Assembly (NCBI GenBank): GCA_018432315.1
Contig: JAHDLB010000010.1
Coordinates: 124,001 to 188,000 of the forward strand
Source of the DNA: Anaerolineae bacterium
Lineage (GTDB): Bacteria; Chloroflexota; Anaerolineae; Aggregatilineales; Aggregatilineaceae
Length of the DNA: 64,000 nucleotides
Reading direction: 5' to 3'
The position numbers were made by a program, and so were the translations under genes. The notes beneath the pieces were generated by a model that was given only the letters and a program-made list of their open reading frames with translations, did not search any database and had not been told where the DNA came from. Of this stretch, positions 14,663 through 31,804 are shown piece after piece (position 1 is the stretch's first letter; each line of letters begins with the position of its first letter).

Positions 14663-16327
14663 CTAACGGCGGCGATACCACCAAACCGCTCCGCCGGCCA
14701 GCAGTACCAGGCCCGGCAGGATCACCATGGTGATGGTGGCGATCGTCGTGCGTTCCCGGTCGCTGACCACTACGGCGAGCCGGGTGGGATCGCTCACCGG
14801 GCTGAAGCTGACCGCGTCCACGAATCCGGTCAGCCAGTCGACGGTGTCCGTCCAGAGGAAGGTGTTGCCCGGATACTCCTCAACGAAATCGTTCTTGAAG
14901 ACGTCCGAATCGCCGATGACGATCACCCTGGGCTTCGTCTCTTCCTGGCTTTCGACCGAGTAACGCGCGGTGGCGGCCAGCAGCAGCGGGCCGGGCGTGT
15001 CCTCGCCCTGGTCGAAGGCGATCTGTGAGTCGGACAGGATGCCTTCCAGATTGCTCTCGGCAAACGACCCGTCGGACGAGTACAGCAGCGGCGCGCGCTG
15101 GTAGCGGCTCTGCCGGGCGGTTGGTGTCTCGGCCAGCTCGATTGCGCGCACGAACTGCATCACGATCTGGGCGTCGCGCACGTCGGCCAACATCTGGTGC
15201 GGCGCGATCTGGTCTACCAACAGGGTGAACTCGTTCCCGATTGCCAGCCGCGTCTCGATGACGACGCTATCCCGCACGCGAATGCCGAACTCGTCCCAGA
15301 GGTATTCGCTGAAGGCGCTGCCCTCTTCCAGGAAGGTGTTGGTGAGCGACGTGCCGATGTCCACCAGCGGCGGATCGGTGAAGATCGCCAGCCGGCCGCC
15401 GCGCTGCAAAAAGTCGTCGATGAGCTGCACCTCGGCTTCGACGAACGGCGTGCGCGCCCCGGCGATGATCAGCGCGTTGGCGTCGTCCGGAATGCCAGTG
15501 TTGAGCGCGTCCATCAGGCGCAGCGGCTCGACGGCGATGCCCGCGCCTTCCAGGCTGACGCGCAGGCGCGAGATCCCGATCTTGTCCACCCGGTCGAGGT
15601 CCAGCTCGCCATGGCCGGTGGTGAAATACACCTTGAACTGCCCGGCAGAGGCGATGGTCTTCAGCCCGGTCGTGATGGCGCGCTCGTCTACACCGCCCAG
15701 GTAGAGCGGGGGCGTGCGCGGGTCCGGGTTCCCATCGGCACCCAGCACGGACAGGAACAGGTCGCCGTCATAGCCGGGTTGGTAGCCGTACTGTTGGGCG
15801 AGATCGGGGCGCTCGTCGGGATCGACATAGGCGACTTCGACCGCGTCATCACCCTCGGCCTCGTACTGGCGCAGCAGCAGGTCGGCGGACTCCTGCTCGC
15901 GGAGCGCGTTTCGGCTGAAGAACCCGACGATGCGCACCCGGAAACCGCGATCCTGAAGCTGGTCGATGGTGGTGAGCGTGGTCGAACTCAGCGAATAGCG
16001 TTGGCGCGACGTGAGATCGACGGTGATGTTGGCCCGGTCGACCAGCAGGTAGACGAGGATGATGAAGCCAACGAACAGGACCGTGATCAATACGCTCGTC
16101 GTGGCATACGCCGTTTGGCGCCCCGTGATCCACGCCTGGAACTCGCCGGGGGCCGCCCGCATCCACACGGCGATCCCGGCCACGCCGGCGGCGACGCAGG
16201 CGAACACCGGAAGCGACACGTCGCGGGTGATGAGAAACACGATACCCCCCGCAACCAGCGCCACCGCGCCGCCCACGCCAACCCAACTGATGAGCGCCGC
16301 CTGTTTGGCGGTTGTCGGCTGGTCCAT
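14663..16327 (-). CDS. GldG-like ABC transporter accessory protein
   Basis: The 554-residue protein has membrane segments near the N-terminus (about 10-35, 38-55 and 75-98), a large extracytoplasmic domain typical of ABC_transp_aux (GldG) proteins (FRVRIVGFFSRN near 160, YFTTGHGELDLDRVDKIG near 270, DANALIIAGARTPF near 325), and a C-terminal membrane helix IATITMVILPGLVLLAGGAVWW. ATG 16327 overlaps the permease stop (TGATG), so the two are translationally coupled; longer openings run into the permease gene. GldG-type proteins form ABC systems with GldA and GldF, known from gliding bacteria but widespread elsewhere. The substrate is unknown. Confidence 0.8.
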   Translation of the reverse strand: MDQPTTAKQAALISWVGVGGAVALVAGGIVFLITRDVSLPVFACVAAGVAGIAVWMRAAPGEFQAWITGRQTAYATTSVLITVLFVGFIILVYLLVDRANITVDLTSRQRYSLSSTTLTTIDQLQDRGFRVRIVGFFSRNALREQESADLLLRQYEAEGDDAVEVAYVDPDERPDLAQQYGYQPGYDGDLFLSVLGADGNPDPRTPPLYLGGVDERAITTGLKTIASAGQFKVYFTTGHGELDLDRVDKIGISRLRVSLEGAGIAVEPLRLMDALNTGIPDDANALIIAGARTPFVEAEVQLIDDFLQRGGRLAIFTDPPLVDIGTSLTNTFLEEGSAFSEYLWDEFGIRVRDSVVIETRLAIGNEFTLLVDQIAPHQMLADVRDAQIVMQFVRAIELAETPTARQSRYQRAPLLYSSDGSFAESNLEGILSDSQIAFDQGEDTPGPLLLAATARYSVESQEETKPRVIVIGDSDVFKNDFVEEYPGNTFLWTDTVDWLTGFVDAVSFSPVSDPTRLAVVVSDRERTTIATITMVILPGLVLLAGGAVWWYRRR

Positions 16328-17088
16328 CAGCGCCACCTCCGCGATTCGATCAGGCGGGTGGTGATGAAGATCACGGCCACGATCAGCCCGATGAAGAACA
16401 CGACATCCTCGAACCGGATCACGCCGATCAGGAACGACGTGGAATAGTGCGATTGCAGGCTCAGCGACCGGATGACCTCGGCCACGGGACGGTTCTGGAT
16501 CACGCTGCCGGCGAAGTCGCCCAGCCACAGGATGAACAGAGCGGAGATGCTCAGGAACCCGGCAACGACCTGGTTCTCGGTCACTGCCGAGAACAGCAGC
16601 CCTACCGCCAGCGCCGCGCCGCCGAACAACCAGATGCCCATGTACCCGCTGATGACCGGGCCAATGTCGAGCTCCGGGGCGATCTCGTAGGCGCGGACGG
16701 TGGTGATCGACAGCCAGATCGCCTGGTAGGTCAGCGTCAGGCCGAGGATGAACGTGTAATAGGCCCAGGCGCCGAGGAACTTGCCGAGGACGATATCGCC
16801 GTCACGTGCCGGGGCGGTCAGCAGCAGCTCGAGCGTGCCCTCGCGCGATTCTTCCGCGAAGAGGCGCATGGTGAGCAGCGGCGCGAAGAAGATCGTGAGG
16901 AACCCGAACGCAGCGAGCACCGCAGTGCCGTCCGGCGGGCGCTGGCCCACGCGCGAGGCCAGATCGGTGTTGAACTGGAACCCGGTCAGCATCAGGATCG
17001 CGAAGGCGACCAGATAGGCGATGGGCGAGGTGAAGTACTGGCTCAACTCGCGCCGGGCGATGATGGCGACGTTACGCACGGCGGGCAC
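16327..17088 (-). CDS. ABC-2 type permease (GldF-like)
   Basis: The 253-residue integral membrane protein opens RNVAIIARRELSQYFTSPIAY, a hallmark of GldF-like ABC-2 permeases, and has six predicted membrane segments. The cytoplasmic stretch EESREGTLELLLTAP is the conserved coupling region. It overlaps the ATPase gene by 17 bases upstream and the GldG-like gene by one base downstream, so all three belong to one operon. Confidence 0.85.
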   Translation of the reverse strand: MPAVRNVAIIARRELSQYFTSPIAYLVAFAILMLTGFQFNTDLASRVGQRPPDGTAVLAAFGFLTIFFAPLLTMRLFAEESREGTLELLLTAPARDGDIVLGKFLGAWAYYTFILGLTLTYQAIWLSITTVRAYEIAPELDIGPVISGYMGIWLFGGAALAVGLLFSAVTENQVVAGFLSISALFILWLGDFAGSVIQNRPVAEVIRSLSLQSHYSTSFLIGVIRFEDVVFFIGLIVAVIFITTRLIESRRWR

Positions 17089-18028
17089 CTCCTGACCGGG
17101 GCGCGGGCTGGTCGAGGCGCGTCGTCAGTTCCAGGAAGATCTCCTCCAGCGTGACGGCCCACGGGCGCAGCTCCAGCAGTTCCAGGCCCTGGCTGACGAT
17201 TGCCGAGGCGAGCGCCGGGCGAATCTCGCTGTTGGGCTTCACCTGGATGATGAAGCCGTCCGCGTGGGGCTCGACCGACCTGACCCCCTGGACCGCGCCG
17301 ACCAGCCGCGCGATCTCGCGCCGGTCCGCCCGGCCACCGACGCGTAGAAAGACCTGCACGCCGCGCTGCAGGTGGTCGCGCAGGTGCTCCGGCGTGTCGA
17401 TCGCCACGATTCGCCCGCGGTCGATGATGATGATGCGGTCGCAGACCTGTTCGGCTTCAGGCAGGATGTGGGTGCTCAGCAGGACGGTGCGCGTCCTGCC
17501 GAGTTCGCGCACCAGCGCCCGCACGTCCTGCACCTGGTGCGGGTCCAGGCCGATCGTCGGCTCGTCCAGGATCAGGACTTCGGGATCGTGCACGATGGCC
17601 TGGGCCAGCCCGACGCGCTGGCGCATGCCTTTCGACAGGCTGCGAACCAGGCTGCGCGCCCGGTCGGCCATGCCCACCAGTTCGAGCACCTCAGCGACCC
17701 GCTGGCGGCGGTTCTTCACACCGTGAATCTCGGCCATGAAGTCCAGGTAGCCGCGCACCGTCATATCCCGGTAGAGCGGCACCGTCTCCGGGAGGTAGCC
17801 GACGTGCCGCCGCATTTCGAGCGACTGCTCGACCACATCGAAACCGGCGACGGTGGCGTGACCGTTGGTCGGCGGCATGAAGCCCGTCAGGATGCGCATG
17901 GTCGTCGTCTTCCCGGCGCCGTTCGGGCCGAGAAACCCCAGAATTTCGCCGGGTTGGGCGCTGAAGCTGATCGAATCGAGCGCGACGAAACGCCCGTACC
18001 GCTTGGTCAACTGCGACACGTCAATCAT
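17072..18028 (-). CDS. ABC transporter ATP-binding protein (GldA-like)
   Basis: The 318-residue ATPase has Walker A GPNGAGKTT, signature LSKGMRQR, Walker B VLILDEPTIGLDP and H-loop STHI, with a C-terminal DUF4162-type extension. It energises the adjacent GldF/GldG-like pair. ATG 18028 (MIDVSQLTKRYG) is the standard family start; in-frame GTG codons at 18034 and 18040 are alternatives. A terminator hairpin ends about 20 bases upstream. Confidence 0.87.
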   Translation of the reverse strand: MIDVSQLTKRYGRFVALDSISFSAQPGEILGFLGPNGAGKTTTMRILTGFMPPTNGHATVAGFDVVEQSLEMRRHVGYLPETVPLYRDMTVRGYLDFMAEIHGVKNRRQRVAEVLELVGMADRARSLVRSLSKGMRQRVGLAQAIVHDPEVLILDEPTIGLDPHQVQDVRALVRELGRTRTVLLSTHILPEAEQVCDRIIIIDRGRIVAIDTPEHLRDHLQRGVQVFLRVGGRADRREIARLVGAVQGVRSVEPHADGFIIQVKPNSEIRPALASAIVSQGLELLELRPWAVTLEEIFLELTTRLDQPAPRSGGARRA

Positions 18029-18046
18029 TGCCACTGCCACCAGAAA

Positions 18047-18225: not shown

Positions 18226-19215
18226 TTAGCGGGCCGACATCGTCGCGCTGAACCAGGGCGGCAGCGCGACCTGCGCCATGGACCGCCAGTCCCACCCGTC
18301 AGGCGCCGGGACGGACGCCGGCACGCTGCATTTGAAGTAGTAATCGATGCCGACTTCGGGCGGTGGCGAGGTGATGGTGACGTCGTTGGGCGCGACGAAA
18401 TCGAACCGGCGGTCGGGCTCGGCCTGGATGACGACCGGCGCTCCGAGCATGTCTTCCAGCCGCCGCCGCAACGTCTGGTGGAGCGGCGCGGTATCGCGAT
18501 CGATGGCGAAGCGGGGGAAGGCGAATTCCGGATCGCCGGCGCGGCCCAGAATGGCCTCGCCTTGCTGGACGATGGCGACCAGGGCACAGTGGAAAACGTG
18601 CCGGTCGATGATGTCGTGCGCGTCCTGGCCCGGCGTGTCCTGGCGGCGGGCGCGCTCGCTCGCGATGATGCGCTGGAGCTGTTCGGTCGCGTCGTCGACC
18701 GAATCGTTCAGGATCAGATAGTGGCACTGCGGGGCGAACGTCATTTCGAAGCGCGCGCGCTCCAGGCGTTCTTTCACCTCTTCGGGTGTGACGTTGCCGC
18801 GATGCTCGATGCGCTCGGCCAGGATATCGAGATTGGACGGCGTCACGAAGATCAGGACGACGTGTTCGGCGTAGGCGTCGAGAATCTCGCTGGCCCCCAG
18901 GAATTCGATGTCCGCGATCAGGTCGCGGCCTTTGGCAATCGCCTCCTCGACGGTTTGCCGCGGCGTGCCATAGAAGTCATCGAGATGGACGTTCTGATAC
19001 TCGACCAACGCGTCGGTGTCGATCAGGCGTTGGAATTCCTGGTGGGTGACGAACCAGTGCTCGCGCCCCTGTTGTTCACCCACGCGCATGTCACGCGTGG
19101 TCATCGTCGCCAACTGGTCGAGATCGCCAAAATGAGCCTGGGCCGGTTTCATCAACGTGTTTTTTCCGGCGGCGGATGGGCCGACGAGAATGAACAGAAT
19201 TCCCTGGCGCGGCAT
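18226..19215 (-). CDS. gmk: Guanylate kinase-like protein with extra C-terminal domain
   Basis: Residues 1-190 match guanylate kinase, which phosphorylates GMP to GDP: the P-loop GPSAAGKNT, the TTRDMRVGEQQGREHWFVT GMP-binding segment, and DIEFLGAS. The P-loop reads SAAGKNT rather than the common SGVGKGT. The protein is 329 residues against about 200 for a normal Gmk. The remaining 140 residues start HVFHCALVAIVQQGEAILGR and look like an independent alpha/beta domain faintly recalling Nudix proteins, but no Nudix box is visible. The start follows AAAGGA. The extension is unidentified, so a kinase with a changed role is possible. Confidence 0.72.
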   Translation of the reverse strand: MPRQGILFILVGPSAAGKNTLMKPAQAHFGDLDQLATMTTRDMRVGEQQGREHWFVTHQEFQRLIDTDALVEYQNVHLDDFYGTPRQTVEEAIAKGRDLIADIEFLGASEILDAYAEHVVLIFVTPSNLDILAERIEHRGNVTPEEVKERLERARFEMTFAPQCHYLILNDSVDDATEQLQRIIASERARRQDTPGQDAHDIIDRHVFHCALVAIVQQGEAILGRAGDPEFAFPRFAIDRDTAPLHQTLRRRLEDMLGAPVVIQAEPDRRFDFVAPNDVTITSPPPEVGIDYYFKCSVPASVPAPDGWDWRSMAQVALPPWFSATMSAR

Positions 19216-19365: not shown

Positions 19366-22300
19366 TTATTCGGCGACGCGGATGTCGTCGATGTACCAGC
19401 CATCTCCGGTGCTGCTGCTGCTACCGCCACGCCCATCCAGCCGGAAGCGGATGTTGATCTTCTGCCCGGCGAAGGCGCTCAGATCGATGTGCCGTTCGCG
19501 CCAGGTGTTGTCGGTGCCAGTTGCCGACCGGACGGGTGGGCGCCATGTGAAGCCCTCGTCCGTCGATATTTCGGTGTAGACCGTGTCGCTCCAGCCCAGG
19601 GACCGTCGATCCCAGTAGGTCAGGGCCGGGTTGGCCGTGCCGGTCAGGTCGATCAATCCTTCCAGGGTAAGTGACATGTCGTTCATGTGGAAGTAGTTGC
19701 CGGACGGGCTGTCGGTGAACACGCGCCCGGTGATCCCGAAGTTCACCAGGACGCGCGCGTTCCCGCCGCGCTCGTAGTATTCCACCACGATGGTATGAGG
19801 CCCTTCGTCCAGGGTGACGTCGGCAACATCCGGGCTGGACGGGAAGCCGCGATCGACCCACCTGTTGATCACCGTCGCGCCATCGACTCTCACACGGATG
19901 CCGTCGTCGGACTGCGTTTGAATCTGGTACTGCGTGCCGTCGTTCGCCACCTGGATGGTGCGCGTCCACCGGACCAGGAAGTAGTCGTACACGCCCGGCA
20001 GCTCGGCTGGCCCGCCGCTGCCCCAATCGAAGTCGATCTGGGCGTCCTGGCGCGTGGTGACCAGCTCGCCGGCATCGAATGTCCGGTTGTGGTTGAGATC
20101 GTTGAAGTATTCGGCAGTCCAGCCGCCCGGCCCCAGGGCGCTGCCACTGCCCACCGTGCGGAACATGGACATGCGGGCCCAGGTGCCATCCATCACCCAG
20201 TAGTCGTTATCGGATTCGACGTCTTCGTTGAACGGCAGCGGGAAGGTGGGCTCGATACCGTGGCGATCCACGATCGACACGTCGTCGATCCACCAGCCAT
20301 CGGCTACGCGCCCGTCGCGGACTGCGTACAGCCGGAACCGGATGCGGATCCACTTGCCGATGTAGTCGCTCATGTCGGCCTGGCCGACCTGGCGCCGATC
20401 CCAGGAGGAGGTGGTTTCGTAACGGTGTCTGAATACCTCGTCCCAACCCCGCCAGGTCATGCCGTTATCGTCGGATACATTGATCTCGACCAGGGCATAA
20501 TCCTCGTAGGCGAGGTCGAACGCCTCCCAGAAGTAGAGCGTCGGCTTGACCGTTCCCGTCAGGTCGACTGCGCCGCGCAGTTCGAGGATCGCGTTGGAGC
20601 CGTGCTTGTACTGGACGCCGTACGAGTCGGTGTAGGCCACAGCGCCATCGTGCTTGTTCTCCGGCGCGATTGTCCAGGTGCCGCCGGCATACCAGTTGTT
20701 ATCGCCGCGCTCGAACCCGTCGGAGAACGGCAAGGTGCGGACCGGTTCGTTGAATTCCTGGAAGCACACATCGTCAACCCACCAGCCGTCTTCGGTCGCC
20801 GAGTTGTAGAGCGCATCCAGCCGGAAGCGCACGCGGATGACCTGGCCGACGTAGTTTCGCAGGCTGACGCTTTCGCGCGTCCACGATAGGTTGGTGTTAT
20901 AACGATGATCGACGACCAGCCGGTACCCTGCCGGCAGGTTGTTGTACTGGTAAGTCCAGATGGTGGTCCAGCTTGTCCCGTCATCGGTCGAAACCTCGAC
21001 ATAGAGATCGTCGGCATAGCCCACGTCCCACTGGTGCCAGAACGCCATTTCCGGGTTGCTCGACCCGGTCAAGTCGAGCCTCGCGCTGAGCTGGAGCGAG
21101 CTGTTGGTTTCGTGGGCATAGTTCGTCCCTGGGCTGTCGGACCAGAACTGCGATCCGCTGTGCGCGGTGATGGTCTGGTTATAGGGTTGGCTGGGGTTAT
21201 AGTCCGGCCCATTGACGATGGACCACGTCCCGCCTGCAATCCAGTCGGAGCCGCCCGTCTCCATGTTGTCGCACCAGTTCGGCGTGATGACCGCGTCGGG
21301 CTTGTTGCGCAGCGAGAAATCGTCGATCCACCACCCATTGTCTACCTGAGTGTGGCTGCGGGCATCCAACCGGAAGCGCAGATGGATCACGCTCCCGGCA
21401 TAATCAGCGAGCGACAGAACCACCTGGGTCCAGCCTGTGTTTGTGGTGTTCGCTGTCAGGTAGTTACCCGTCAGCGGTTCCCAGGTATAGCGATTGTTCG
21501 TCGATACCTCGATGTAAATCGCGTCGTTGTAACCGAGCTCATAGCGGTGCCAGAACACCACCTCCGGATCGATCACGGGGTTGCCGTCCAACTGGTCGTT
21601 GTCGAGCACGATCACGCCATCCAACTCCAGCGTATTGTTCGAGCCGTGTTGGTAGCTGGCGCCGGGACTGTCCGACCAGGCCAGGCTGCCGCTGTGGACC
21701 TCTTCGTTGCTGCGGGCCCAGGACCCGCCGGGATACCAGTGCGAGGCGCCTTCCATGTCATCGGCAAACCCGACGGTATAGCGTTTGATAACTTCTTCCT
21801 TGACCGAGATGTCGTCGATCCACCAGCCATCCGCCGTGCTCCAGCTAGTGGCATTCAGGATGAACCTGATCTCGATGATCTCGTTGCTGAAATCGCGTCC
21901 GAGGTTGGGGCCAGGGCCGTCGGGATCGGCGAAGTTCGACAGATCGAATGTCTGACGCGTCCAACCGAGGTCGGTTTCGTTATAGTGCAGGTCGTAATCG
22001 GTCCAGTTGTCGGTCCCGGCTACGGCCAGACCCACGCGCGCGTAGGTGCCGCTGTTCAGGTTGAAGCGATCCCAGAATTCCAGCTTGGGGTTGGTCGAGC
22101 CGCGCAGGTCGATATACCCGCGCAGGGCCAGGATGCAGTAGGAATTGGGAGCGTAGCTAGCTCCTGGGCTGTCGGACCAGGCCGTTGGCGCGCTGCGGTA
22201 GGCTTCGTCGGAGATGGCCCAATTACAATCGCCTTCGTCCAACATGGAGACTTCGTCGAGCAGGATGACGCTCGCGCGCGCGCCCCAACCGTTGTCGAAC

Positions 22301-23175
22301 ATCTCGACGATGATGTCATTTTGGCCTGCAGTGGGCGTGAAGGTACGCGTGATCCAGTTGTCCCGGTCAGGGTTCCAACTCCACGAGTCGTAGATCGCGA
22401 CGCCGCCGATCCAGATGCGCATGCCGTCGTCCTTGCGAAACCGGAGCGTGTACTGCTTGGCTTCGAGATTGGCGGAATTCGTGAAGCGGGCGTAGAAGTT
22501 GCGGTCAACGCCGCCGCCAGGGCTGTCGGACCAGTAATGATCCAGCGTTTCGAAGGTCGTCTGCCAGTCGCCGTTTCCCGGGTTGTACTTGCCAGTCGAC
22601 ATGCTCGAATCGTAGGACGAGCAACTGTCCGTATTGCACATGTCCCAGAACTCAGCGTTCCAGGGGCCGAGCAGCCCGTCGAAATCGTGCTCCCACCAGT
22701 CGGGATGTTCCCCTTTGTCTTCGAACGGGTATCCGAAGTTCTGGTCGGGCGGAGTCGGGCTGGGGCCGGGCGTGTTGGTGTTCGTCGGTGTGGGCGACGG
22801 TGTCACGTCGGTGGGGGTGGGGGACGGCCCAATTGTCGGGGTGGCCGTCTCCGGCGCGGGCGTATTGGTCGTCAGGCGCGGGTTTTCCGGCGTGTATGAT
22901 GCTACCGCTGCCACCTGCTCCCAGAATTGGTCCGCGGACAGGGTATCACGTGGCTCGATCGTGCCGCCCAGCAGGTTGTAGACCGCGTTACTGAAGACAT
23001 TGCCCACGGCTGGCCCGGTGATCGTCAGGACGGCGATCAGGGCGATGGTCACCAGTGCCAGGATCAGCACGTATTCGATGATCGCCTGGCCGCGCGTCTG
23101 CGACCGTTTCACCAGCCGGAACCAGAGATGTGCGCGCCTGGCGGAGCGCGATTGTCCAGTTCTGTGGTTGGTCAT
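19366..23175 (-). CDS. Pilin-signal adhesin-like surface protein with PA14 and repeated modules
   Basis: The 1269-residue protein starts with a basic leader, then RGQAIIEYVLILALVTIALI: a prepilin peptidase site (G29/Q30) with Glu at +5 and a hydrophobic helix, as in Flp/TadE-type pilins. A Thr/Pro-rich linker (about 100-145) leads to a PA14-like region (about 150-310). Five modules follow, each closing with a variant of DGWWIDDISV near residues 451, 615, 798, 961 and 1260. A second PA14-like domain (about 1015-1150) is inserted in the last module. The recurring WSDSPG motif marks each module. Such modules resemble MAM/jelly-roll adhesion domains. ATG 23175 follows GGAGGGG. It is probably surface-anchored or pilus-tip exposed; partners are not in the window. 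Confidence 0.8.
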   Translation of the reverse strand: MTNHRTGQSRSARRAHLWFRLVKRSQTRGQAIIEYVLILALVTIALIAVLTITGPAVGNVFSNAVYNLLGGTIEPRDTLSADQFWEQVAAVASYTPENPRLTTNTPAPETATPTIGPSPTPTDVTPSPTPTNTNTPGPSPTPPDQNFGYPFEDKGEHPDWWEHDFDGLLGPWNAEFWDMCNTDSCSSYDSSMSTGKYNPGNGDWQTTFETLDHYWSDSPGGGVDRNFYARFTNSANLEAKQYTLRFRKDDGMRIWIGGVAIYDSWSWNPDRDNWITRTFTPTAGQNDIIVEMFDNGWGARASVILLDEVSMLDEGDCNWAISDEAYRSAPTAWSDSPGASYAPNSYCILALRGYIDLRGSTNPKLEFWDRFNLNSGTYARVGLAVAGTDNWTDYDLHYNETDLGWTRQTFDLSNFADPDGPGPNLGRDFSNEIIEIRFILNATSWSTADGWWIDDISVKEEVIKRYTVGFADDMEGASHWYPGGSWARSNEEVHSGSLAWSDSPGASYQHGSNNTLELDGVIVLDNDQLDGNPVIDPEVVFWHRYELGYNDAIYIEVSTNNRYTWEPLTGNYLTANTTNTGWTQVVLSLADYAGSVIHLRFRLDARSHTQVDNGWWIDDFSLRNKPDAVITPNWCDNMETGGSDWIAGGTWSIVNGPDYNPSQPYNQTITAHSGSQFWSDSPGTNYAHETNSSLQLSARLDLTGSSNPEMAFWHQWDVGYADDLYVEVSTDDGTSWTTIWTYQYNNLPAGYRLVVDHRYNTNLSWTRESVSLRNYVGQVIRVRFRLDALYNSATEDGWWVDDVCFQEFNEPVRTLPFSDGFERGDNNWYAGGTWTIAPENKHDGAVAYTDSYGVQYKHGSNAILELRGAVDLTGTVKPTLYFWEAFDLAYEDYALVEINVSDDNGMTWRGWDEVFRHRYETTSSWDRRQVGQADMSDYIGKWIRIRFRLYAVRDGRVADGWWIDDVSIVDRHGIEPTFPLPFNEDVESDNDYWVMDGTWARMSMFRTVGSGSALGPGGWTAEYFNDLNHNRTFDAGELVTTRQDAQIDFDWGSGGPAELPGVYDYFLVRWTRTIQVANDGTQYQIQTQSDDGIRVRVDGATVINRWVDRGFPSSPDVADVTLDEGPHTIVVEYYERGGNARVLVNFGITGRVFTDSPSGNYFHMNDMSLTLEGLIDLTGTANPALTYWDRRSLGWSDTVYTEISTDEGFTWRPPVRSATGTDNTWRERHIDLSAFAGQKINIRFRLDGRGGSSSSTGDGWYIDDIRVAE

Positions 23176-23488
23176 CTATGTATCCCCTCCTGCTCTGACG
23201 GGGCGTTCGTTTCCGTATACCCTTGTTATAGAACGTAGCGAGCGGCGTATGTCAGTCTCAGTGTAACACATCAGCTACTCGACAGGACGCAAAGAATGGC
23301 CTGCTGTTCCTACATCTAATAGTACCTGACTCTGCGAGGAACGGGGTTCATGATTTGTAGAAGAGTTGTCGGAAATCATTGACAAATGGACAATCGCAAA
23401 CGAGCCAGCCGTCACTGGTCTTTCCGGTTGGCTCGTGTTAGGCTCAGCGTACCACAATATTCTGTTACATGGAAAGGGAACTAAACCT
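23176..23488. other. Intergenic region between divergent surface protein and folD genes
   Basis: The 313 bases separate divergent genes and should hold both promoters. A 10-bp stem (23401-23410 with 23426-23435, one G-T pair) with a 15-base loop lies about 55 bases before folD; it could be a leader hairpin. A TTGACA at 23379-23384 has no matching -10 box at the usual distance. I do not recognise a known riboswitch. Confidence 0.4.
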
Positions 23489-24376
23489 ATGAGCGCTACG
23501 TTGATCGACGGCAAAGCGGTCGCTGCCCGCATACGAGAGCAGATCGCCACGGATGTCGCCAGGATGGAAGCCGAGCACGGTGTCCGCCCCGGTTTGGCGG
23601 CGGTCCTGGTGGGTGACAACCCGGCCTCGCAAAGTTACGTGCGGATGAAACGCAAGGCATGCGATCAGGTTGGGATCGCGTCCTTCGGGCACAACCTGCC
23701 CGCCGACGCGACTCAGGAGGAAGTCGAGCGCCTGGTCGGAGAGTTGAACGCCGATCCGCAGGTGCACGGGATTCTGGTCCAGCTCCCGCTCCCCAAACAC
23801 CTGGACGAGGAACGAATCCTGAGCATGATCAGCCTCCACAAGGACGTGGATGGGTTCCACCCGGTCAACATCGGGCGGCTGGCGATGAAAGGCCGCGACC
23901 CGCTGTTCATCCCCTGCACACCGCACGGCGCGATGGTCCTGCTCGAGGAGGCGGGCGCCACGTTCGAAGGCGCGAACGCCGTTGTCCTGGGGCGCAGCAA
24001 CATCGTCGGCCTGCCCGCGGCGCTGCTGTTGATTCACCGCAACGCCACCGTGACCGTCTGCCACAGCCGGACGAAGGACCTGCCCGCGGTGTGCCGCGAG
24101 GCCGATATTCTGATCGCCGCGGTGGGGCGCCCAGAGATGGTGAAAGCCGACTGGGTCAAGCCCGGCGCGTACGTGATCGACGTCGGCTCGAACCAAGTCG
24201 ATGATCCGGCCAGCGAAAAAGGGTATCGCTGGGTGGGCGATGTCGCGTTCGACGAGGTGAAGGAAGTGGCGGGCGCGCTGACGCCGTCGCCGGGCGGCGT
24301 TGGCCCGATGACGATCGCGATGCTGCTGAAAAACACGTTGCGTGGGGCCGAGTTGGTGCTTTCGGGCCAGGTCTAG
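23489..24376 (+). CDS. folD: Methylenetetrahydrofolate dehydrogenase/cyclohydrolase
   Basis: The 295-residue bifunctional enzyme interconverts 5,10-methylene-, methenyl- and 10-formyl-THF. Seen motifs are the SYVRMKRKACDQVGI segment with the catalytic Lys, GILVQLPLP, the PCTPHGAM active-site loop, GRSNIVGLPAALLL (NADP-binding) and the C-terminal PSPGGVGPMTIAMLL signature. ATG 23489 follows GGAAAGGGA; the frame opens further upstream without family similarity. It is the first gene of the long catabolic island, where it could process one-carbon units from purine breakdown, although it is also a housekeeping gene. Confidence 0.95.
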   Translation: MSATLIDGKAVAARIREQIATDVARMEAEHGVRPGLAAVLVGDNPASQSYVRMKRKACDQVGIASFGHNLPADATQEEVERLVGELNADPQVHGILVQLPLPKHLDEERILSMISLHKDVDGFHPVNIGRLAMKGRDPLFIPCTPHGAMVLLEEAGATFEGANAVVLGRSNIVGLPAALLLIHRNATVTVCHSRTKDLPAVCREADILIAAVGRPEMVKADWVKPGAYVIDVGSNQVDDPASEKGYRWVGDVAFDEVKEVAGALTPSPGGVGPMTIAMLLKNTLRGAELVLSGQV

Positions 24377-24475: not shown

Positions 24476-25843
24476 ATGTCTACTTTGCTGATCAAACATG
24501 CCGCGGTGCTCGTCACGATGGACGACGAGCGGCGCGAGATTCGCGACGGCGGGCTGTTCGTCCGTGACAACGTGATCGAGGCGGTCGGCCCCACGGCTGA
24601 GCTGCCGGATGCCGCGGACGAGGTGCTCGACCTGAGCGGCCACATCGTGCTGCCCGGCCTGGTGAACACGCACCACCACATGTACCAGTCGCTCACGCGC
24701 GTGATCCCCGCCGGGCAGAACAAAGAGCTGTTCGGGTGGCTGCGCGCGCTGTACCCGATCTGGGCGGGCCTGCGGGCCGAGGCAGTCTACGTGAGCGCCA
24801 AACTGGCTGCGGCTGAGCTGGCGCTGTCCGGCTGCACCACGTCCAGCGATCACCTCTACATCTTTCCCAACGACGTGACGCTCGAAGACGAGATTCGCGG
24901 GGTGGGGGAGGCCGGCCTGCGCTTCCACGCCACGCGCGGCAGCATGAGCCTGGGCGAGAGCAAAGGCGGCCTGCCGCCGGATAGCGTGGTCGAAGACGAG
25001 GACGCCATCCTCGCCGACAGCCAGCGGGTGATCGAGGCGTTCCACGACAACAGCCGCTACGCCATGCTGCGCATTGGGCTGGCGCCGTGCTCGCCGTTCA
25101 GCGTCACGCGCGACCTGATGCGCGCCTCGGCGGAACTGGCGCGCAGCTATCCCGGCGTGCGACTGCACACGCACCTGGCCGAGACGCAGCCGGACGTCGA
25201 ATATAGCCTCGAGCAGTTCGGCCTGCTTCCGGGCGACTACGCCGAGGACGTCGGCTGGATCGGCGAGGATGTGTGGCACGCGCATTGTGTGCATCTGACG
25301 CCCGAAGCGCTGGACAAGTTCGGGCGGACGGGGACCGGTGTGGCACACTGCCCGGCGAGCAACGCGCGGCTCGCCAGCGGGATCGCCCAGGTGCGCGGGA
25401 TGCTCGACCGCGGCGTGCCGGTTGGCATGGGCGTGGACGGCTCGGCCAGCAACGACAGCGGCCATTTGCTGAACGAGGCGCGGCTGGCGCTGTTGATGCA
25501 GCGCGCGCTGACGTGCGATCCCGGGGTGCTGACGGCGCGCGACGCGCTCGAGCTTGCCACGCTGGGCGGCGCGCGCGTCCTGGGCCGAGACGACATCGGC
25601 GCGCTCAAGCCGGGCATGGCGGCGGATTTCGTTGCCTACGACCTGGGCGACGTGGCGTATGCCGGCGCGCTGCACGACCCGGTGGCGGCGCTCATCTTCT
25701 GCACGTCGATCAACGTGGCCTACAATGTGGTCAACGGCAAATTCGTCGTGCGCGAGGGGCGGCTCGCCAACCTGGAGCTTGAGCCGCTGATCGAACGGCA
25801 CAACGCGATCGCCAGGGCGCTGGTGGATGGAGAAGCGATCTGA
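24476..25843 (+). CDS. 8-oxoguanine deaminase family amidohydrolase
   Basis: This 455-residue metal-dependent aminohydrolase closely follows the 8-oxoguanine deaminase family, which converts 8-oxoguanine to urate and ammonia. Seen are the metal motif THHHMYQSLTR (H66, H68), LFGWLRALYPIWAGL, ATRGSMSLGESKGGLPPDS, HTHLAET, VGWIGEDVWHAHCVHL and the metal Asp in GVDGSASND. The TRGSMSLGE and GVDGSASND segments agree with the Pseudomonas enzyme family as I recall it. Many databases call such proteins hydroxydechloroatrazine ethylaminohydrolase. Its stop overlaps the hydantoinase start. Guanine or a related base is a possible alternative substrate. Confidence 0.82.
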   Translation: MSTLLIKHAAVLVTMDDERREIRDGGLFVRDNVIEAVGPTAELPDAADEVLDLSGHIVLPGLVNTHHHMYQSLTRVIPAGQNKELFGWLRALYPIWAGLRAEAVYVSAKLAAAELALSGCTTSSDHLYIFPNDVTLEDEIRGVGEAGLRFHATRGSMSLGESKGGLPPDSVVEDEDAILADSQRVIEAFHDNSRYAMLRIGLAPCSPFSVTRDLMRASAELARSYPGVRLHTHLAETQPDVEYSLEQFGLLPGDYAEDVGWIGEDVWHAHCVHLTPEALDKFGRTGTGVAHCPASNARLASGIAQVRGMLDRGVPVGMGVDGSASNDSGHLLNEARLALLMQRALTCDPGVLTARDALELATLGGARVLGRDDIGALKPGMAADFVAYDLGDVAYAGALHDPVAALIFCTSINVAYNVVNGKFVVREGRLANLELEPLIERHNAIARALVDGEAI

Positions 25844-27291
25844 TGGCAGAGCGCCTGATCATCCAAAACGGGCAGGTGGTGACCCCGGCGGCGGTGCTGG
25901 CTGCCGACGTGCTGGTCGAGGATGGGCGGATCGCCGGGGTGGTGGCGCCGGGCGCGGTGGCGTGGGCAGGCGCCCGCGCGATCGATGCCGGTGGGTGCCT
26001 GGTTTTCCCCGGCGTGGTCGATCCGCACACGCACATCCAGCTCGACACCGGCATTTACCAGACGGTCGATAACTGGGAGATCGGGACGCGAACGGCGGCC
26101 TTCGGCGGCGTGACGACCGTGGTCGACTTCGCGACGCAGTTTCCCGGCATGACGTTTCCCCAGGCGCTGGAGGCGCGCCTCGTAGAATGCCAGCCGGCGC
26201 TGATCGATTATGGCTTGCACATGATGGTCACCGATCTGCCGCGCGATCCGGACGAGGCGCGGCGCTGGCTGGAAGAACTGCGCGACCTGGGCGTGCCCAG
26301 CATCAAGCTGTATACGACCTACCGGCCCAACTACTACGCCGACGACGCGACGCTGCTGCACACGTTCCGCGCCATGCCGGGCGACATGCTGGCGATGCTC
26401 CACTGCGAGAATGACGCGATGGTGACCGACGCGACCGGGCGGCTGGTCGCAGCCGGCCAGACGAGCTGGGCCTATCACGGGCAGGGGCGCCCGCCGGAAG
26501 CCGAAGTCGAGTCGATCCGGCGCGTGATGCACCTGGCGAAAGTGGCCGGGGCGGCGGTCTACATCGTGCACAACTCGACCGCCCAATCGGTCCGGCAGGT
26601 TGCCAAGGCACAGCAGGCGAACGATGGCCCGCCGGTGTTCTGCGAGACGTGCCCGCAGTACTTCTGGCTGGACGACAGCCGCTACACGGCGCCCAACGCC
26701 GAGCATTTCATCCTCCAGCCGCCGCTGCGCCCGCCTGCGTGGCAGGTCGATCTGCTCGACGTGTGGACGACGATCAGCGCGGTGTCGACCGATCACTGTG
26801 ATTACTCGCTGGCGCAGAAGCAGGAACACCGCGATTTCACCAAGACGCCCGGCGGCCTGCCGGGGCTGGAGACGCTGTTCCAGTTGACCTACACGGCGGG
26901 CGTGCACCGGGCCGTCGAGCGGCAGGCCGCGGGCGAGCCGGTGGCGCCGATCCCGTTGACGGAGCTGGCGCGGCTGCTCGCCACCGATCCGGCGCGAATC
27001 TTCGGACTGTTCCCGCAAAAGGGCGCGATCCTGCCGGGCGGTGACGCCGACCTGCTGATTTACGACCCCGCGCCCGAGGTCACCATCCGGGCGGCGGACC
27101 AGCATACTATCGGCGGCTACTGCCCGTATGACGGTATGACGGTCCAGGGCCGGGTGCGGACGGTGATCAGCCGGGGCGACGTGCTGGTCGAGGACGGCAC
27201 GCTGCACGGCGCGCCGGGGCGGGGGCAGTTTGTGCGCGGCAAACCGGTCGATTGGGCGCGCGTGACGCGAAAAAAGACAGTGACAGTTTGA
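25843..27291 (+). CDS. hyuA: Hydantoinase/dihydropyrimidinase-type amidohydrolase (HyuA/YgeZ-like)
   Basis: The 482-residue cyclic amidohydrolase opens hydantoin- or dihydropyrimidine-like rings. The metal ligands are visible: DPHTH (H62, H64), the carboxylated Lys of SIKLYTTY (K155), LHCEND (H187), YIVHNST and the Asp of STDHCDYS. The length and the C-terminal GRVRTVISRGDVLVEDG are normal for the family. Its ATG overlaps the deaminase stop by one base. In the E. coli purine locus the homologous gene sits beside ygeW and yqeA, as here, so a ring-opened purine or allantoin-like intermediate is a likely substrate; the exact one is unknown. Confidence 0.87.
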   Translation: MAERLIIQNGQVVTPAAVLAADVLVEDGRIAGVVAPGAVAWAGARAIDAGGCLVFPGVVDPHTHIQLDTGIYQTVDNWEIGTRTAAFGGVTTVVDFATQFPGMTFPQALEARLVECQPALIDYGLHMMVTDLPRDPDEARRWLEELRDLGVPSIKLYTTYRPNYYADDATLLHTFRAMPGDMLAMLHCENDAMVTDATGRLVAAGQTSWAYHGQGRPPEAEVESIRRVMHLAKVAGAAVYIVHNSTAQSVRQVAKAQQANDGPPVFCETCPQYFWLDDSRYTAPNAEHFILQPPLRPPAWQVDLLDVWTTISAVSTDHCDYSLAQKQEHRDFTKTPGGLPGLETLFQLTYTAGVHRAVERQAAGEPVAPIPLTELARLLATDPARIFGLFPQKGAILPGGDADLLIYDPAPEVTIRAADQHTIGGYCPYDGMTVQGRVRTVISRGDVLVEDGTLHGAPGRGQFVRGKPVDWARVTRKKTVTV

Positions 27292-27308
27292 AAAACCCGT
27301 GGTATGCT
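27280..27308 (+). promoter_or_regulatory. Possible promoter of the carbamoyltransferase genes
   Basis: GTGACA at 27280-27285, a 17-base spacer and TATGCT at 27303-27308. The -35 box overlaps the end of the hydantoinase gene; the next start codon is at 27401. Confidence 0.35.
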
Positions 27309-27400
27309 GTCTTGATCATTGCCAATGTGGCATAATTGAGCGGATGAGGGCTTCCGAACCGGGAGCCCAGGACTATTGAACCAAACAGGAGTTTCGAAAG

Positions 27401-28354
27401 ATGCGTAGTTTTCTCGGTCGTGACATTCTATCGCTAAAGGATTTTGACCGTCACGAGTACTTCCGGGTATTCGAGGTGGCCGACATGCTTGAGCCGTATG
27501 CGCGGGACCGGCGCAATGGCGATTTGCTCAAGCACAAAACGCTGGTGACGGCCTTCTACCAGCCCAGCACGCGCACGCGTTTGGCGACGGAAGCCGCCAT
27601 GCACCGCCTGGGCGGGCACGTGACGGGCTTTTCGGATGCCAAGATGACCCGCGCGGGCGACTTCTACCAGGAAGGCATCCAGGACACGGTCAAGATGCTG
27701 GAGTACTACGGCGACGTGATCGCCATGCGCCACTTCCAGCAGGGCGCGCCGGCGGAAGCCGCGCAGCACGCCAGCGTCCCGGTGATCAACTGCGGCGATG
27801 GCTGGGGCGAGCACCCGACCCAGGTGCTGACCGATCTGCTGACCATCAACCGGATGCGCGGCACGCTCGACGGCCTGAAGTGGATCCTGATTGGCGACAT
27901 GCGCATGCGCACCATGCACAGCATCAGCTACGCGCTGAGCAAGTTCGACTCCAAGGCGTACGTGATCTCGCCCGACGAGATGTACTTCCTGCCGGAATTC
28001 GAGACCGAGGTCCGCGATATGGGCTTCCAGTTCGAGCGCAAGGAACACATCGAACAGGTGATCGCCGAAGCGGACGTGATCTACATGGAGCCGGTCGTGC
28101 AGCCCGATTACACCAAGGCCCGCGAAGAAGCCACCGCCGACAAAGGCCGCACCCCCGCCAACTACCAGGTCACCAAGAAACTGCTGTTCGAGAAAGCCAA
28201 GCCTAATGCGATCGTCCTGCACTCACTGCCCCGCCAGGACGAGCTGACCACCGACGTCGACAATACCCGCTTCCAGCGGTACTGGGTCGAAGCCTACAAC
28301 GGCGTGCTCACGCGCATGGCGCTGCTGGCCCTGATTCTCGGCGCGGTGGAGTAA
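27401..28354 (+). CDS. Aspartate carbamoyltransferase-like enzyme, atypical 80s loop
   Basis: The 317-residue protein has the carbamoyl-phosphate motif PSTRTR (S56-R60), MRHFQQGAP in place of MRHPQEGA, GDGWGEHPTQVLTDLL in place of the HPTQ motif, and HSLPRQDEL matching HPLPR of aspartate carbamoyltransferases. The region equivalent to the ATCase 80s loop reads DAKMTRAGDFYQEG and lacks the conserved Lys of the KGET motif, so the acceptor may not be aspartate (alignment by eye). It lies between hydantoinase and a second carbamoyltransferase; no other pyrimidine synthesis gene is nearby. A role in carbamoyl transfer during purine breakdown is inferred; a true PyrB is the alternative. Confidence 0.75.
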   Translation: MRSFLGRDILSLKDFDRHEYFRVFEVADMLEPYARDRRNGDLLKHKTLVTAFYQPSTRTRLATEAAMHRLGGHVTGFSDAKMTRAGDFYQEGIQDTVKMLEYYGDVIAMRHFQQGAPAEAAQHASVPVINCGDGWGEHPTQVLTDLLTINRMRGTLDGLKWILIGDMRMRTMHSISYALSKFDSKAYVISPDEMYFLPEFETEVRDMGFQFERKEHIEQVIAEADVIYMEPVVQPDYTKAREEATADKGRTPANYQVTKKLLFEKAKPNAIVLHSLPRQDELTTDVDNTRFQRYWVEAYNGVLTRMALLALILGAVE

Positions 28355-28384
28355 GCCTCGATCGCATAGCGACTCGTCGATCAA

Positions 28385-28422
28385 CAGGGCCAGCCATGGG
28401 CACATCGCCGTAGCTGGCCCTG
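28385..28422. other. Strong hairpin between the two carbamoyltransferase genes
   Basis: CAGGGCCAGC (28385-28394) and GCTGGCCCTG (28413-28422) form a perfect 10-bp stem with an 18-base loop. No T-run follows directly; a T-rich patch lies 13 bases further. It may be a terminator, an RNA-stability element or a leader structure. Confidence 0.45.
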
Positions 28423-28466
28423 AATGCCAACAGGTTTATTTTTTGCAGCAGCAAAGGAATTGACAC

Positions 28467-29447
28467 ATGCAGACACATCTAGTAGGCCGTGACATGATCA
28501 CGCCCGACGAGTGGACCGACGACGAACTGAACACCGTGTTCGACGTCGCCTTCGACCTCAAGCGCAAGCGCGCGCTGGGCGAGCCGCACGCGCTGCTGCG
28601 CGACAAGGTGCTGGCGATGCTGTTCTTCTTCTCCAGCACGCGCACGCGGGTCAGCTTCGAGGCCGGGATGGCCCAGCTTGGCGGGCACGCCCAGTTCATC
28701 GAGAGCAAGACAACCCAGATCGCGCATGGCGACACGGCCAAAGAGATCGGCGAGATCATTGGCCGGTACTGCGACGGCATCGCGATTCGCCAGGTGGATT
28801 GGGGCGTGGGCAACCAGTACATCCGCGACGTGGCAGCCGCCAGCCGGGTGCCGGTCCTCAACATGCAGTGCGACTGGTACCACCCGTTCCAGGCGCTGGC
28901 CGACATGCTGACCATCTTCGAGCGGTTTGGGCGCGATCCGCGCGGCAAGACGCTGAATATGTCGTGGGCGTACGCGTCGAGCTACCAGAAGCCGCTGTCC
29001 GTGCCGCAGAGCCTGATCACGCTGGCGACGCGCTTCGGGATGAACGTGCGCCTGACTCGCCCGCCGGAATTCAAGCTGATGCCGGAGATCGAAGATCTGG
29101 CCCGCGAGAACGCACGCAAGGCGGGCGGCAGCTTCGAGGTGCTGGACGACTTCGACGCGGGCTTCACCGGCGCGGACGTCGTGTATCCCAAGAGCTGGGG
29201 CGCCACCCTGACGACGACCGACATGGAAGAGTCGAAGCAGATCGCCGGCAAATACTCGGACTGGATCGCGGATTCCAGGCGCATGGCCCTGGCGAACGAG
29301 AATGCCATCTACATGCACTGCCTGCCGGCGGATCGCAACATCGAGGTGACCGACGAGGTGATCGACGGGCCGCAGAGCGCCGTGTACGACGAGGCCGAGA
29401 ACCGTTTGCACGTTCAGAAAGCGGTGATGGCCCTGACGATGCGCTAG
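28467..29447 (+). CDS. ygeW: YgeW-family (knotted) carbamoyltransferase
   Basis: The 326-residue protein carries SSTRTR (S57-R61), TTQIAHGDTAKE, NMQCDWYHPFQALADM, MSWAYASSYQKPLSVPQ, DVVYPKSWGATL and the carbamoyltransferase motif MHCLPADR. The SWAYASSYQKPLSVPQ and DVVYPKSW blocks are characteristic of YgeW, a catabolic carbamoyltransferase of the purine locus, and differ from ornithine carbamoyltransferase, although the C-terminus (TDEVIDGPQSAVYDEAENRL) resembles OTC. It is shorter than E. coli YgeW (about 396). The expected direction is carbamoyl-phosphate release for ATP synthesis by the carbamate kinase encoded next. Confidence 0.85.
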   Translation: MQTHLVGRDMITPDEWTDDELNTVFDVAFDLKRKRALGEPHALLRDKVLAMLFFFSSTRTRVSFEAGMAQLGGHAQFIESKTTQIAHGDTAKEIGEIIGRYCDGIAIRQVDWGVGNQYIRDVAAASRVPVLNMQCDWYHPFQALADMLTIFERFGRDPRGKTLNMSWAYASSYQKPLSVPQSLITLATRFGMNVRLTRPPEFKLMPEIEDLARENARKAGGSFEVLDDFDAGFTGADVVYPKSWGATLTTTDMEESKQIAGKYSDWIADSRRMALANENAIYMHCLPADRNIEVTDEVIDGPQSAVYDEAENRLHVQKAVMALTMR

Positions 29448-29488
29448 GCTCGACGCGCCTTTGTGCGCGAGAGTCTGCCGAGGTTTAC

Positions 29489-29525
29489 AAGCCGATCAAC
29501 CACGTGGTGTGGGGTGGTCGGCTTT
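29489..29525 (+). terminator. Terminator-like hairpin before the carbamate kinase gene
   Basis: AAGCCGATCAACC at 29489-29501 pairs imperfectly with GGTGGTCGGCTT (ending 29524), followed by TCGTAT. The stem is about 9-10 bp with a short U-tract, lying between the YgeW-like and carbamate kinase genes. Confidence 0.45.
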
Positions 29526-29579
29526 CGTATCGAAAAGTGTTCTATCCAACAAAAAAATGCATGATAAGGGGAATATACC

Positions 29580-30554
29580 ATGCCACCAGCCAGAACAGCC
29601 GTGATTGCGATCGGGGGAAATTCGCTCATCCTGGACAAGAACAAGCCCCAGGTCGAGCATCAATGGGAAGCCGTGTACGAGACGGCAAAGCATATCGTCG
29701 ACATGATCCGTGAAGGATGGCGCGTCGTCGTCACGCACGGGAACGGCCCGCAGGTCGGGTTCATCCTGCGTCGTAACGAGCTGGCGTACCCGTACGTCCA
29801 CACGACGCCGATGGACATCATTGGCGCGGACACGCAAGGCAGCATCGGGTACATGCTCCAGCAGGCTATGACCAACGAGCTGCGGCGCGTTGGCATCCGG
29901 CGGAACGTGGCGACTGTGGTCACGCAGACGCTGGTCGATCGCAACGATGAGGCCTTCAAGAACCCTAACAAACCGATCGGCGGGTTCATGTCGAAAGAAG
30001 AAGCAGAGCCGTTTGAAAAAGACGGGTGGACCGTCGTCGAGGATGCCGGGCGCGGATATCGCCGCGTGGTGGCGTCGCCCATCCCGGTCGAGATCGTCGA
30101 GCTGGACGCGATCAACACTCTGGTCCAGAACGACGTGATCGTGATCTGCGTGGGCGGCGGCGGAATCCCGGTCACGCGTGATGAGAACGGCAACCTGCAC
30201 GGCGTGAATGCCGTGATCGACAAAGACCGGGGCACCAGCCTGCTGGCGAACGGGCTTCAGGCCGACCTGTTCGTGATCTCGACCGCGGTCGAGAAAGTCG
30301 CGATCAACTTTGGCAAGCCGGACGAGAAATGGCTGGACCGCATGACGCTGGCCGAAGCCAAGCAGTACATGGCCGAAGGGCACTTCGCGCCCGGCAGCAT
30401 GTACCCGAAGATCGAAGCCGTAGTGAGCTATCTTGAGAAGGGCGGCCCGAAAGCGCTCATCACCAACCCCGAGAACCTCGCGCGGGCGCTGCGCGGCGAG
30501 ACGGGAACCGTGATCTGCCCGGCTGACGAGTCAGGGAACTCGCCATGCTGGTAA
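29580..30554 (+). CDS. arcC: Carbamate kinase (ArcC/YqeA)
   Basis: The 324-residue enzyme makes ATP from carbamoyl phosphate and ADP. Seen motifs are IAIGGNSLI, VVVTHGNGPQVGFILRRNEL, GYMLQQAM, VIVICVGGGGIPV, the DKDRGTSLLA segment and AEGHFAPGSMYPKIEA, all standard for carbamate kinases, and the length is usual. ATG follows AAGGGGAATATACC. It is placed directly after two carbamoyltransferases, as yqeA is in E. coli. Its end overlaps the next gene by 10 bases. Confidence 0.93.
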   Translation: MPPARTAVIAIGGNSLILDKNKPQVEHQWEAVYETAKHIVDMIREGWRVVVTHGNGPQVGFILRRNELAYPYVHTTPMDIIGADTQGSIGYMLQQAMTNELRRVGIRRNVATVVTQTLVDRNDEAFKNPNKPIGGFMSKEEAEPFEKDGWTVVEDAGRGYRRVVASPIPVEIVELDAINTLVQNDVIVICVGGGGIPVTRDENGNLHGVNAVIDKDRGTSLLANGLQADLFVISTAVEKVAINFGKPDEKWLDRMTLAEAKQYMAEGHFAPGSMYPKIEAVVSYLEKGGPKALITNPENLARALRGETGTVICPADESGNSPCW

Positions 30555-31804
30555 GCGAACTGCGCTGCGTAATCTGCGGTCGCTCGTACAGCCCGGACGA
30601 CGTCGAATACACCTGCCCGCACTGCGGGCAGGCCGGCACGCTGGACGTCCTGTACGACTATGACGCGCTGCGGCAGCACGTCACGCCGGACGACGTCGCG
30701 CGCAGCGGCGACCTGTCGATGTGGCGCTATCGCCCGTTGATGCCGCTGGCCGAGGGGGCCGCCGTGCCGCCGCTGCTGGTGGGCAACACGCCGATCTACG
30801 AGGCGCCGCGCCTGGCGGCGGACCTGGGGCTGTCGCAGGTGTGGGTCAAGGACGATGGCCGGAACCCGACCGGCTCGCTCAAAGACCGGGCCAGCGCCCT
30901 GATCGTGGCGCGCGCGATGGCCGAAGGGATCGAAGTGGTCACGACGGCGAGCACCGGCAACGCTGCCGCTGCCCTGGCAGGATTGGCCGCGAGTGTGGGG
31001 CTGCCATCGGTGATCTTCGTGCCGGCGGCAGCGCCCGAAGCCAAGATCGCCCAATTGCTGATCTATGGCGCGACGGTGATGCTCGTGCAGGGCAACTACG
31101 ATAACGCGTTCGATCTGGCGGTGGCCGCGTCCGAGCGCTATGGCTGGTACAACCGCAACACCGGCATGAATCCCTACACGCTGGAAGGCAAGAAGACGGT
31201 CGCGTTCGAGGTGGCCGAGCAGTTCGGCTGGGACGTGCCGGACGTGCTGGTGGTGAGCGTGGGTGATGGGAACATCATCAGCGGCGTGTATAAGGGATTC
31301 ACGGACCTACTCGAGCTGGGGTGGATCGACCGCATCCCGCGGCTGATCGGCGTCCAGTCCACGGGCAGCGCCGCGTGTTACCAGGCCTGGAAGGCGGGCG
31401 CCGATCCGGCCACGATGGCGCCGATCAACGCGCAGACGGTCGCTGACAGCATCGCGGCAGACCTGCCGCGCGACCGCGTGAAAGCGGTGCGCGCCGTCAA
31501 GGAGAGCGGCGGGGCATTCGTCGCCGTTCCGGACGAGGCGATCCTGGACGGGATTCCCGCGCTGGCGCGATTGTCCGGCGTGTTTGCCGAGCCGGCGGGC
31601 GCCGCGGTGTATGCCGGGGCGCGCGCAGCTATCGACGAAGGCGCCATCCAGGCGGACGATCGGGTCGTGCTACTGGTGACCGGCAACGGGCTGAAAGACA
31701 TCAAGAGCGCGATGCGTGTGGCGGGCGCCGGGCATCCGGTGGCGCCGGACATCGACGAGGTGGAACGGCTGCGCAGCACGCTGCAGCTTCCGACCTTCAA
31801 GTAG
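30545..31804 (+). CDS. Threonine synthase-like PLP enzyme with zinc ribbon
   Basis: The 419-residue fold-type-II PLP enzyme has an N-terminal four-Cys ribbon (C8, C11, C24, C27), PTGSLKDRAS with the PLP Lys (K113), the STGNAAAALAG phosphate-contact region and GVFAEPAGAAVYAG. This is the architecture of threonine synthase (ThrC). It overlaps the carbamate kinase gene by 10 bases, so it belongs to that operon rather than to a threonine operon. YgeX of the E. coli purine locus is also a fold-type-II lyase, so this protein may be a catabolic beta/gamma-elimination enzyme in the same slot. Genuine ThrC remains possible. Confidence 0.78.
   Translation: MLVSELRCVICGRSYSPDDVEYTCPHCGQAGTLDVLYDYDALRQHVTPDDVARSGDLSMWRYRPLMPLAEGAAVPPLLVGNTPIYEAPRLAADLGLSQVWVKDDGRNPTGSLKDRASALIVARAMAEGIEVVTTASTGNAAAALAGLAASVGLPSVIFVPAAAPEAKIAQLLIYGATVMLVQGNYDNAFDLAVAASERYGWYNRNTGMNPYTLEGKKTVAFEVAEQFGWDVPDVLVVSVGDGNIISGVYKGFTDLLELGWIDRIPRLIGVQSTGSAACYQAWKAGADPATMAPINAQTVADSIAADLPRDRVKAVRAVKESGGAFVAVPDEAILDGIPALARLSGVFAEPAGAAVYAGARAAIDEGAIQADDRVVLLVTGNGLKDIKSAMRVAGAGHPVAPDIDEVERLRSTLQLPTFK

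Follow-up and report, generated by a model that had tools for sequence, protein, structure and literature searches.

The window analysed here is a stretch of 64,000 nucleotides from the genome of an Anaerolineae bacterium. On its minus strand, at 19366..23175, lies a modular Flp-type pilin/adhesin gene, which forms a single open reading frame for a protein of 1,269 aa. The start codon is the ATG at 23175, and a strong ribosome-binding site, GGAGGGG, is located upstream at 23184-23190. The protein (hereafter the giant pilin) starts with a complete Flp-type prepilin, which is followed by a conserved helix of short length and a linker rich in Thr and Pro. The remainder consists of five modules of the MAM-like (choice-of-anchor J) type, with one PA14 domain nested in each of modules 1 and 5. 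The chain terminates with module 5, and a C-terminal anchor is absent. An earlier note, made from the sequence alone, had described a pilin-type N-terminus joined to a 1200-residue modular adhesin, and this layout was confirmed. The mature protein was modelled with AlphaFold in two parts, residues 30-632 (mean pLDDT of 78) and residues 626-1269 (mean pLDDT of 89). The gene is flanked by the divergent folD (23486..24376, plus strand) and, downstream, by a guanylate-kinase-like (gmk-like) gene (18226..19215, minus strand), both of which are kept as neighbours across the order.

The prepilin leader comprises residues 1-29 (23089..23175, minus strand). It varies in length and sequence among the orthologues, whereas its last residue, Gly29, is invariant in all those aligned. 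The predicted cleavage site reads QTRG29/Q30AIIEYVLILALV and includes the Glu5-Tyr6 pair. The mature Flp-type pilin module spans residues 30-69 (22969..23088, minus strand) and shows the features of Flp/Fap (type IVc) pilins, namely Gly at -1, Glu at +5, and Tyr at +6, followed by a hydrophobic helix; the model places a long helix over residues 31-69 (residues 2-40 of the model). Residues 29-68, GQAIIEYVLILALVTIALIAVLTITGPAVGNVFSNAVYNL, are identical to the small Flp pilins of the same genome at 21/40 positions (48-aa pilin) and 19/40 positions (57-aa pilin), which corresponds to 48-53% identity. A conserved second helix with the F84-W85 motif (FW..V.AVAS) follows at residues 81-93 (22897..22935, minus strand; residues 52-64 of the model). 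In an alignment of 39 diverse orthologues, G-1, Q+1, A+2, E+5, Y+6, and a downstream F..FW were invariant, so the N-terminal match is not a matter of chance. FW is missing in two further members, beyond the 39 rows, that do have the pilin part. The giant pilin scored 13.5 bits against Pfam Flp_Fap (PF04964), below the cut-off of 32.2 bits, and the genuine small Flp pilins of the same genome were also below it (20.1 and 28.5 bits). TadE membership was ruled out: the TadE-type profile PF07811 gave no match in the 1,269-aa protein, and its two matches in the genome, both on contig C39, are separate genes. Of the Flp/TadE-type label given in the earlier note, the Flp part is upheld by the kinship to the small Flp pilins and the TadE part is dropped; the prepilin site and the pilin helix named there were both recovered.

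An alternative is that the N-terminus is merely a signal anchor, in which case the protein would be a surface adhesin held in the membrane and would never become part of a pilus. The helix could also serve as a membrane anchor, but an anchor needs neither the G-1, E5, and Y6 that are invariant in 39 orthologues nor an identity of about 50% to small Flp pilins. Since the conserved positions are those needed by a pilin and unneeded by a plain signal anchor, the sequence of the N-terminus is best explained as that of a working prepilin. The protein is not an ordinary Flp pilin, which is a small subunit; with 1,269 aa, of which only the first ~69 residues match the small pilins, it has a pilin module within a larger protein. 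It thus combines a pilin moiety, a linker, and functional domains without pilus specificity, the combination that defines a modular pilin.

The Thr/Pro-rich flexible linker, residues 94-141 (22753..22896, minus strand), was predicted with pLDDT <50 over model residues 65-112. Its composition, 15 Thr and 16 Pro per 50 over residues 94-143, agrees with what had been claimed for it. The MAM-like modules follow, all on the minus strand: module 1 at residues ~146-459 (21799..22740), module 2 at ~466-622 (21310..21780), module 3 at ~629-808 (20752..21291) with invariant Cys635 and Cys804, module 4 at ~815-971 (20263..20733), and module 5 at ~984-1269 (19369..20226). Module 1 was delimited by MAM chains aligning around its PA14 domain, module 2 by an NCBIfam/Pfam match together with the model fold, and modules 3-5 by the model fold. 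DGWWIDD-type motifs start at residues 449, 612, 796, 959, and 1258, with spacings of 163, 184, 163, and 299; the last becomes 163 after subtraction of a PA14 insert of ~136 residues. The five motif-ending modules of the earlier note therefore hold, with spacings of 163-184 once the insert is subtracted. Pfam/NCBIfam searches with the 1,269-aa protein gave matches to PA14 (1e-18) and InhA-like_MAM (2e-19), and choice_anch_J (NF038128) scored 67.9 bits against a cut-off of 30, in agreement with the fold. In a PDB fold search with the models, meprin MAM structures matched the modules at Z of about 15-16, and reelin repeats and gingipain cleaved-adhesin domains were also found, which indicates that the modules are predicted jelly rolls. 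Insecticidal-toxin chains among the fold matches were set aside, as they reflect the common jelly-roll fold. The structure prediction proposed in the earlier note thus returned jelly rolls of the MAM/reelin/gingipain-adhesin kind and PA14 lectin folds.

PA14-1 covers residues ~168-312 (22240..22674, minus strand) and PA14-2 residues ~1015-1151 (19723..20133, minus strand). The PA14 family scored 67.9 bits in Pfam against a cut-off of 24 bits, and the PA14 beta-sandwich is present in the models. The insertion in the last module had been described before; the first PA14 domain, which had not been recognised as an insertion, likewise lies within a MAM-like module, since the MAM chains align over model residues 117-434 and skip it. 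The PDB matches of the PA14 parts are RsgI-type and sugar-bound Marinomonas PA14 structures, and those of PA14-2 include 6qe7 (Z 16.9), 6m8m (Z 14.1), and sugar-bound MpPA14 (Z about 13.5-13.9). In PA14 lectins, two consecutive Asp residues (DcisD) hold the Ca2+ that contacts the sugar (PMC8092209). By its sequence, PA14-2 carries such a pair, Asp1090-Asp1091, which is kept in 17/18 rows with an aligned copy. In PA14-1, the pair is kept in 8 rows only, and Asn-Asn, Asn-Glu, or other residues are found elsewhere. Because of this difference, PA14-2 appears more likely to be the glycan binder than PA14-1.

A scan of genome contigs yielded 75 loci, mostly in Anaerolineae MAGs. In the neighbourhood clustering, 63 members grouped with the 1,269-aa protein, the N-terminal region was kept in 60, the prepilin site was found in 60/60, and folD and the gmk-like gene were present at 50 and 40 loci, respectively, all counts including the window's own locus. 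The orthologues are about 1,270-2,000 aa long and mostly adjoin folD and the gmk-like gene; tad genes were seen beside none of them. Other proteins that join a pilin signal to PA14/MAM-like domains, which the earlier note had suggested looking for, thus occur across one order of Anaerolineae (Chloroflexota). Going by MAG names such as Aggregatilineales, UBA2029, OLB13, and OLB15, we take this order to be SBR1031/Aggregatilineales of the GTDB taxonomy. Spread through the class was ruled out, as every full-length match listed among 249 class genomes came from the order to which the window belongs. MAGs named as other orders, Bacteroidetes, or Bacillota were not counted as spread; some are likely mislabelled or share single modules only.

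The genome also encodes the machinery for a Tad pilus. A tad cluster on contig C43 contains cpaB, a response-regulator/ParA fusion (cpaE/tadZ-like), cpaF, tadB, and tadC, and contig C3 encodes a prepilin peptidase (Peptidase_A24 protein with a GFGD motif). Absence of tad or prepilin peptidase genes, which the earlier note had named as grounds for rejecting its reading, was therefore not found. At least three small Flp pilins are encoded in the same genome; an identical 48-aa Flp pilin is encoded alone at two distant sites, on C51 (L054:7268-7414) and C19 (L055, around 7913-8120). A separate TadE/vWA/TadE locus lies on contig C39 (L133:5321-10505), far from the tad cluster. Here, a 670-aa protein whose sequence includes a vWA-like DTSESMS motif lies between TadE-type proteins of 324 and 725 aa, and the longer TadE-type protein has Thr/Pro-rich stretches. 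This trio is a candidate for a conventional Tad tip complex.

Because the giant pilin gene lies outside the tad cluster, its tie to the Tad pilus rests on sequence kinship and co-occurrence. In 154 genomes of the order, its presence was scored by an N-terminal profile (E ≤ 1e-19), and T2SSF was used as the marker for the Tad platform, its membership in the tad cluster being established in the window's genome only. The giant-pilin signature was found in 89/154 genomes, and T2SSF was present in 89/89 of these; T2SSF occurred without a giant-pilin match in 27/154, and neither was found in 38/154. Phylogeny ignored, the gene was thus confined to genomes with the Tad platform (89/89), with a Fisher value of 8e-19 over the 154 genomes. 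The co-occurrence is one-sided: throughout the order, genomes with the giant pilin form a subset of those with the Tad platform. Support is thinner at the genus level than at the genome level, as T2SSF was found in 58/61 genera, and those seen to lack it (g33, g40, and g203) have no giant pilin either. Most of the double-negative genomes belong to one genus, g35, in which only G372 has either marker; it has both, with the pilin gene adjoining folD. In the six T2SSF-less genomes examined at this site (G046, G058, G065, G073, G085, and G096), folD and the gmk-like gene are immediate neighbours, separated by roughly 55-180 bases. Two genomes, G018 and G020, have kept T2SSF, and the giant pilin is absent from their folD/gmk-like site. 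In G020, where this site is empty, a protein of about 1,850 aa (C1:457472-460390, L042) matches query residues 313-1034 with the pilin part unmatched. Prepilin peptidase was ruled out as a co-varying marker, since Peptidase_A24 was present in 15/15 genomes tested, tad-less ones included.

These data also bear on the signal-anchor alternative. A solitary gene next to folD, apart from the tad genes, is what a membrane-held adhesin would allow, but the gene is missing from 38/38 genomes of the order without T2SSF, and we regard this explanation as improbable. The 1,269-aa protein is probably, in our judgement, a modular Flp-type (type IVc) pilin shown by the Tad pilus as an adhesin. The earlier reading as a pilus or surface adhesin is supported by the tad genes, the co-occurrence, and the MAM/PA14 folds. 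The pilin helix would insert the protein in the membrane, Peptidase_A24 would cut after Gly29, as the conserved site suggests, and the CpaF/TadB/TadC machine would take the protein into the Tad pilus, as suggested by sequence kinship and by presence only with the platform. The Thr/Pro linker may then hold the arm, with its five MAM-like jelly rolls and the two PA14 domains nested in them, outside the filament, and the distal PA14-2 probably binds glycans via Ca2+ on its Asp-Asp pair. Cell-cell or cell-matrix adhesion would be the likeliest job. As the pilin and the adhesive arm are fused in one protein, encoded at a fixed locus and only in genomes with the pilus machine, the giant pilin is a good candidate for the component that makes the order's pili adhesive.

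The position in the pilus was considered separately. We lean slightly towards a low copy number and a place at the pilus tip over one in the shaft. If the subunit sat along the Tad pilus shaft like an ordinary Flp, long adhesive arms would project along the fibre. The base is of the Flp type, the class of shaft subunits, with the TadE-type minor pilins encoded elsewhere; with its flexible linker, the arm could stand clear of the filament surface, and the authors who described modular pilins permit a shaft position given such a linker (PMC8179133). On the other hand, a 139-kDa subunit is bulky, and the characterised modular pilins are thought to be located at the tip (PMC8179133), so that we consider the shaft arrangement rather unlikely, if a serious contender. 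The C39 trio could be the usual tip complex, which counts against the giant pilin as tip adhesin. As the trio resembles tip-complex genes of other Tad systems (PMC12075869, PMC13170226), the giant pilin may be additional to the usual tip. A role as an adapter that primes or regulates pilus assembly (cf. KilK/KilO), with outer modules that are structural and not adhesive, has a precedent in the Flp-type minor pilins of Myxococcus, which are tip adapters (PMC12075869), and the conserved second helix could be a contact surface. However, 1,200 residues of lectin and MAM-like modules would be superfluous in an adapter, and PA14-2 keeps its Asp-Asp pair in nearly all aligned rows (17/18); we find this role very improbable.

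Modular type IV pilins are exemplified by PilB with vWA and PilC with a lectin in Streptococcus sanguinis (PMC8179133, PMC9934059), and the giant pilin resembles them in its N-terminal pilin moiety with a prepilin site, linker, and C-terminal adhesive/carbohydrate-binding modules. The principle is not new, since modular pilins are a described class (PMC8179133). That survey, based on the IPR012902 motif, includes a PA14-bearing architecture and an extreme multi-domain case of 860 residues, and does not mention Flp/Tad in its text (PMC8179133). In contrast, the proteins described here have an Flp-type base, 1,270-2,000 aa, and PA14 domains nested in MAM-like modules. As in the Kil Tad tips of Myxococcus (KilL/M/N with KilK/KilO adapters; PMC12075869), a minor pilin of a Tad pilus would carry a large C-terminal part, judged here from sequence; unlike those tips, in which small Flp-type adapters connect a heterotrimer to the shaft, one Flp-type protein bears the whole arm. 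Caulobacter CpaL, which belongs to a Tad system, is likewise minor pilin-like and has a domain of the adhesion type at its C-terminus (PMC13170226), but this is a vWA domain and not PA14/MAM-like, and the C39 locus looks closer to CpaJ-K-L. The PA14 fold and consecutive Asp pair are shared with the MpPA14 and MhPA14 lectin domains of RTX adhesins, which belong to a giant RTX protein and not to a pilin-based one. Among open-access papers, our search found none on an Flp pilin with a PA14 domain and none on Anaerolineae with Tad pili and an adhesin. The giant pilin departs from the described modular pilins in being built on an Flp-type base, in its size, in having lectin-type domains nested within other modules, and in its fixed order-wide locus, which is empty in tad-less relatives. 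Modular pilins are thereby extended to the Flp/Tad class, with a protein larger than the survey's extreme multi-domain case (PMC8179133).

In Anaerolineae, a link between Tad pili and cell aggregation has been described (PMC4877987), and the mechanism by which sludge Chloroflexota adhere to each other and to flocs has been called unclear (PMC10746286). For one order, the giant pilin names a specific, testable adhesin where Tad pili are suspected in the adhesion of filamentous Chloroflexota. A wider proposal, which we advance tentatively and with less than even confidence, is that an Flp shaft-type subunit with a very large glycan-binding arm is the order's dedicated pilus adhesin, passed on at a single locus and disappearing together with the Tad platform, and that this adhesin accounts for Tad-linked aggregation. 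The empty folD/gmk-like sites provide an evolutionary test.

Some further observations were made in the window. The gmk-like neighbour encodes 329 aa, compared with about 208 aa in some relatives (L142 and L145), so an extra C-terminal part seems likely. Beyond folD, at 24476-31804, amidohydrolase, dihydropyrimidinase-like, two carbamoyltransferase-like, and carbamate-kinase-like genes were recognised by eye, as were molybdenum-hydroxylase-like genes at 44542-55476; by eye, the two regions resemble a purine-degradation cluster. Judged by eye, the region 14663-18040 contains ABC transporter genes of the gliding-type ABC-2 kind, together with a gene for a GldG-like protein.
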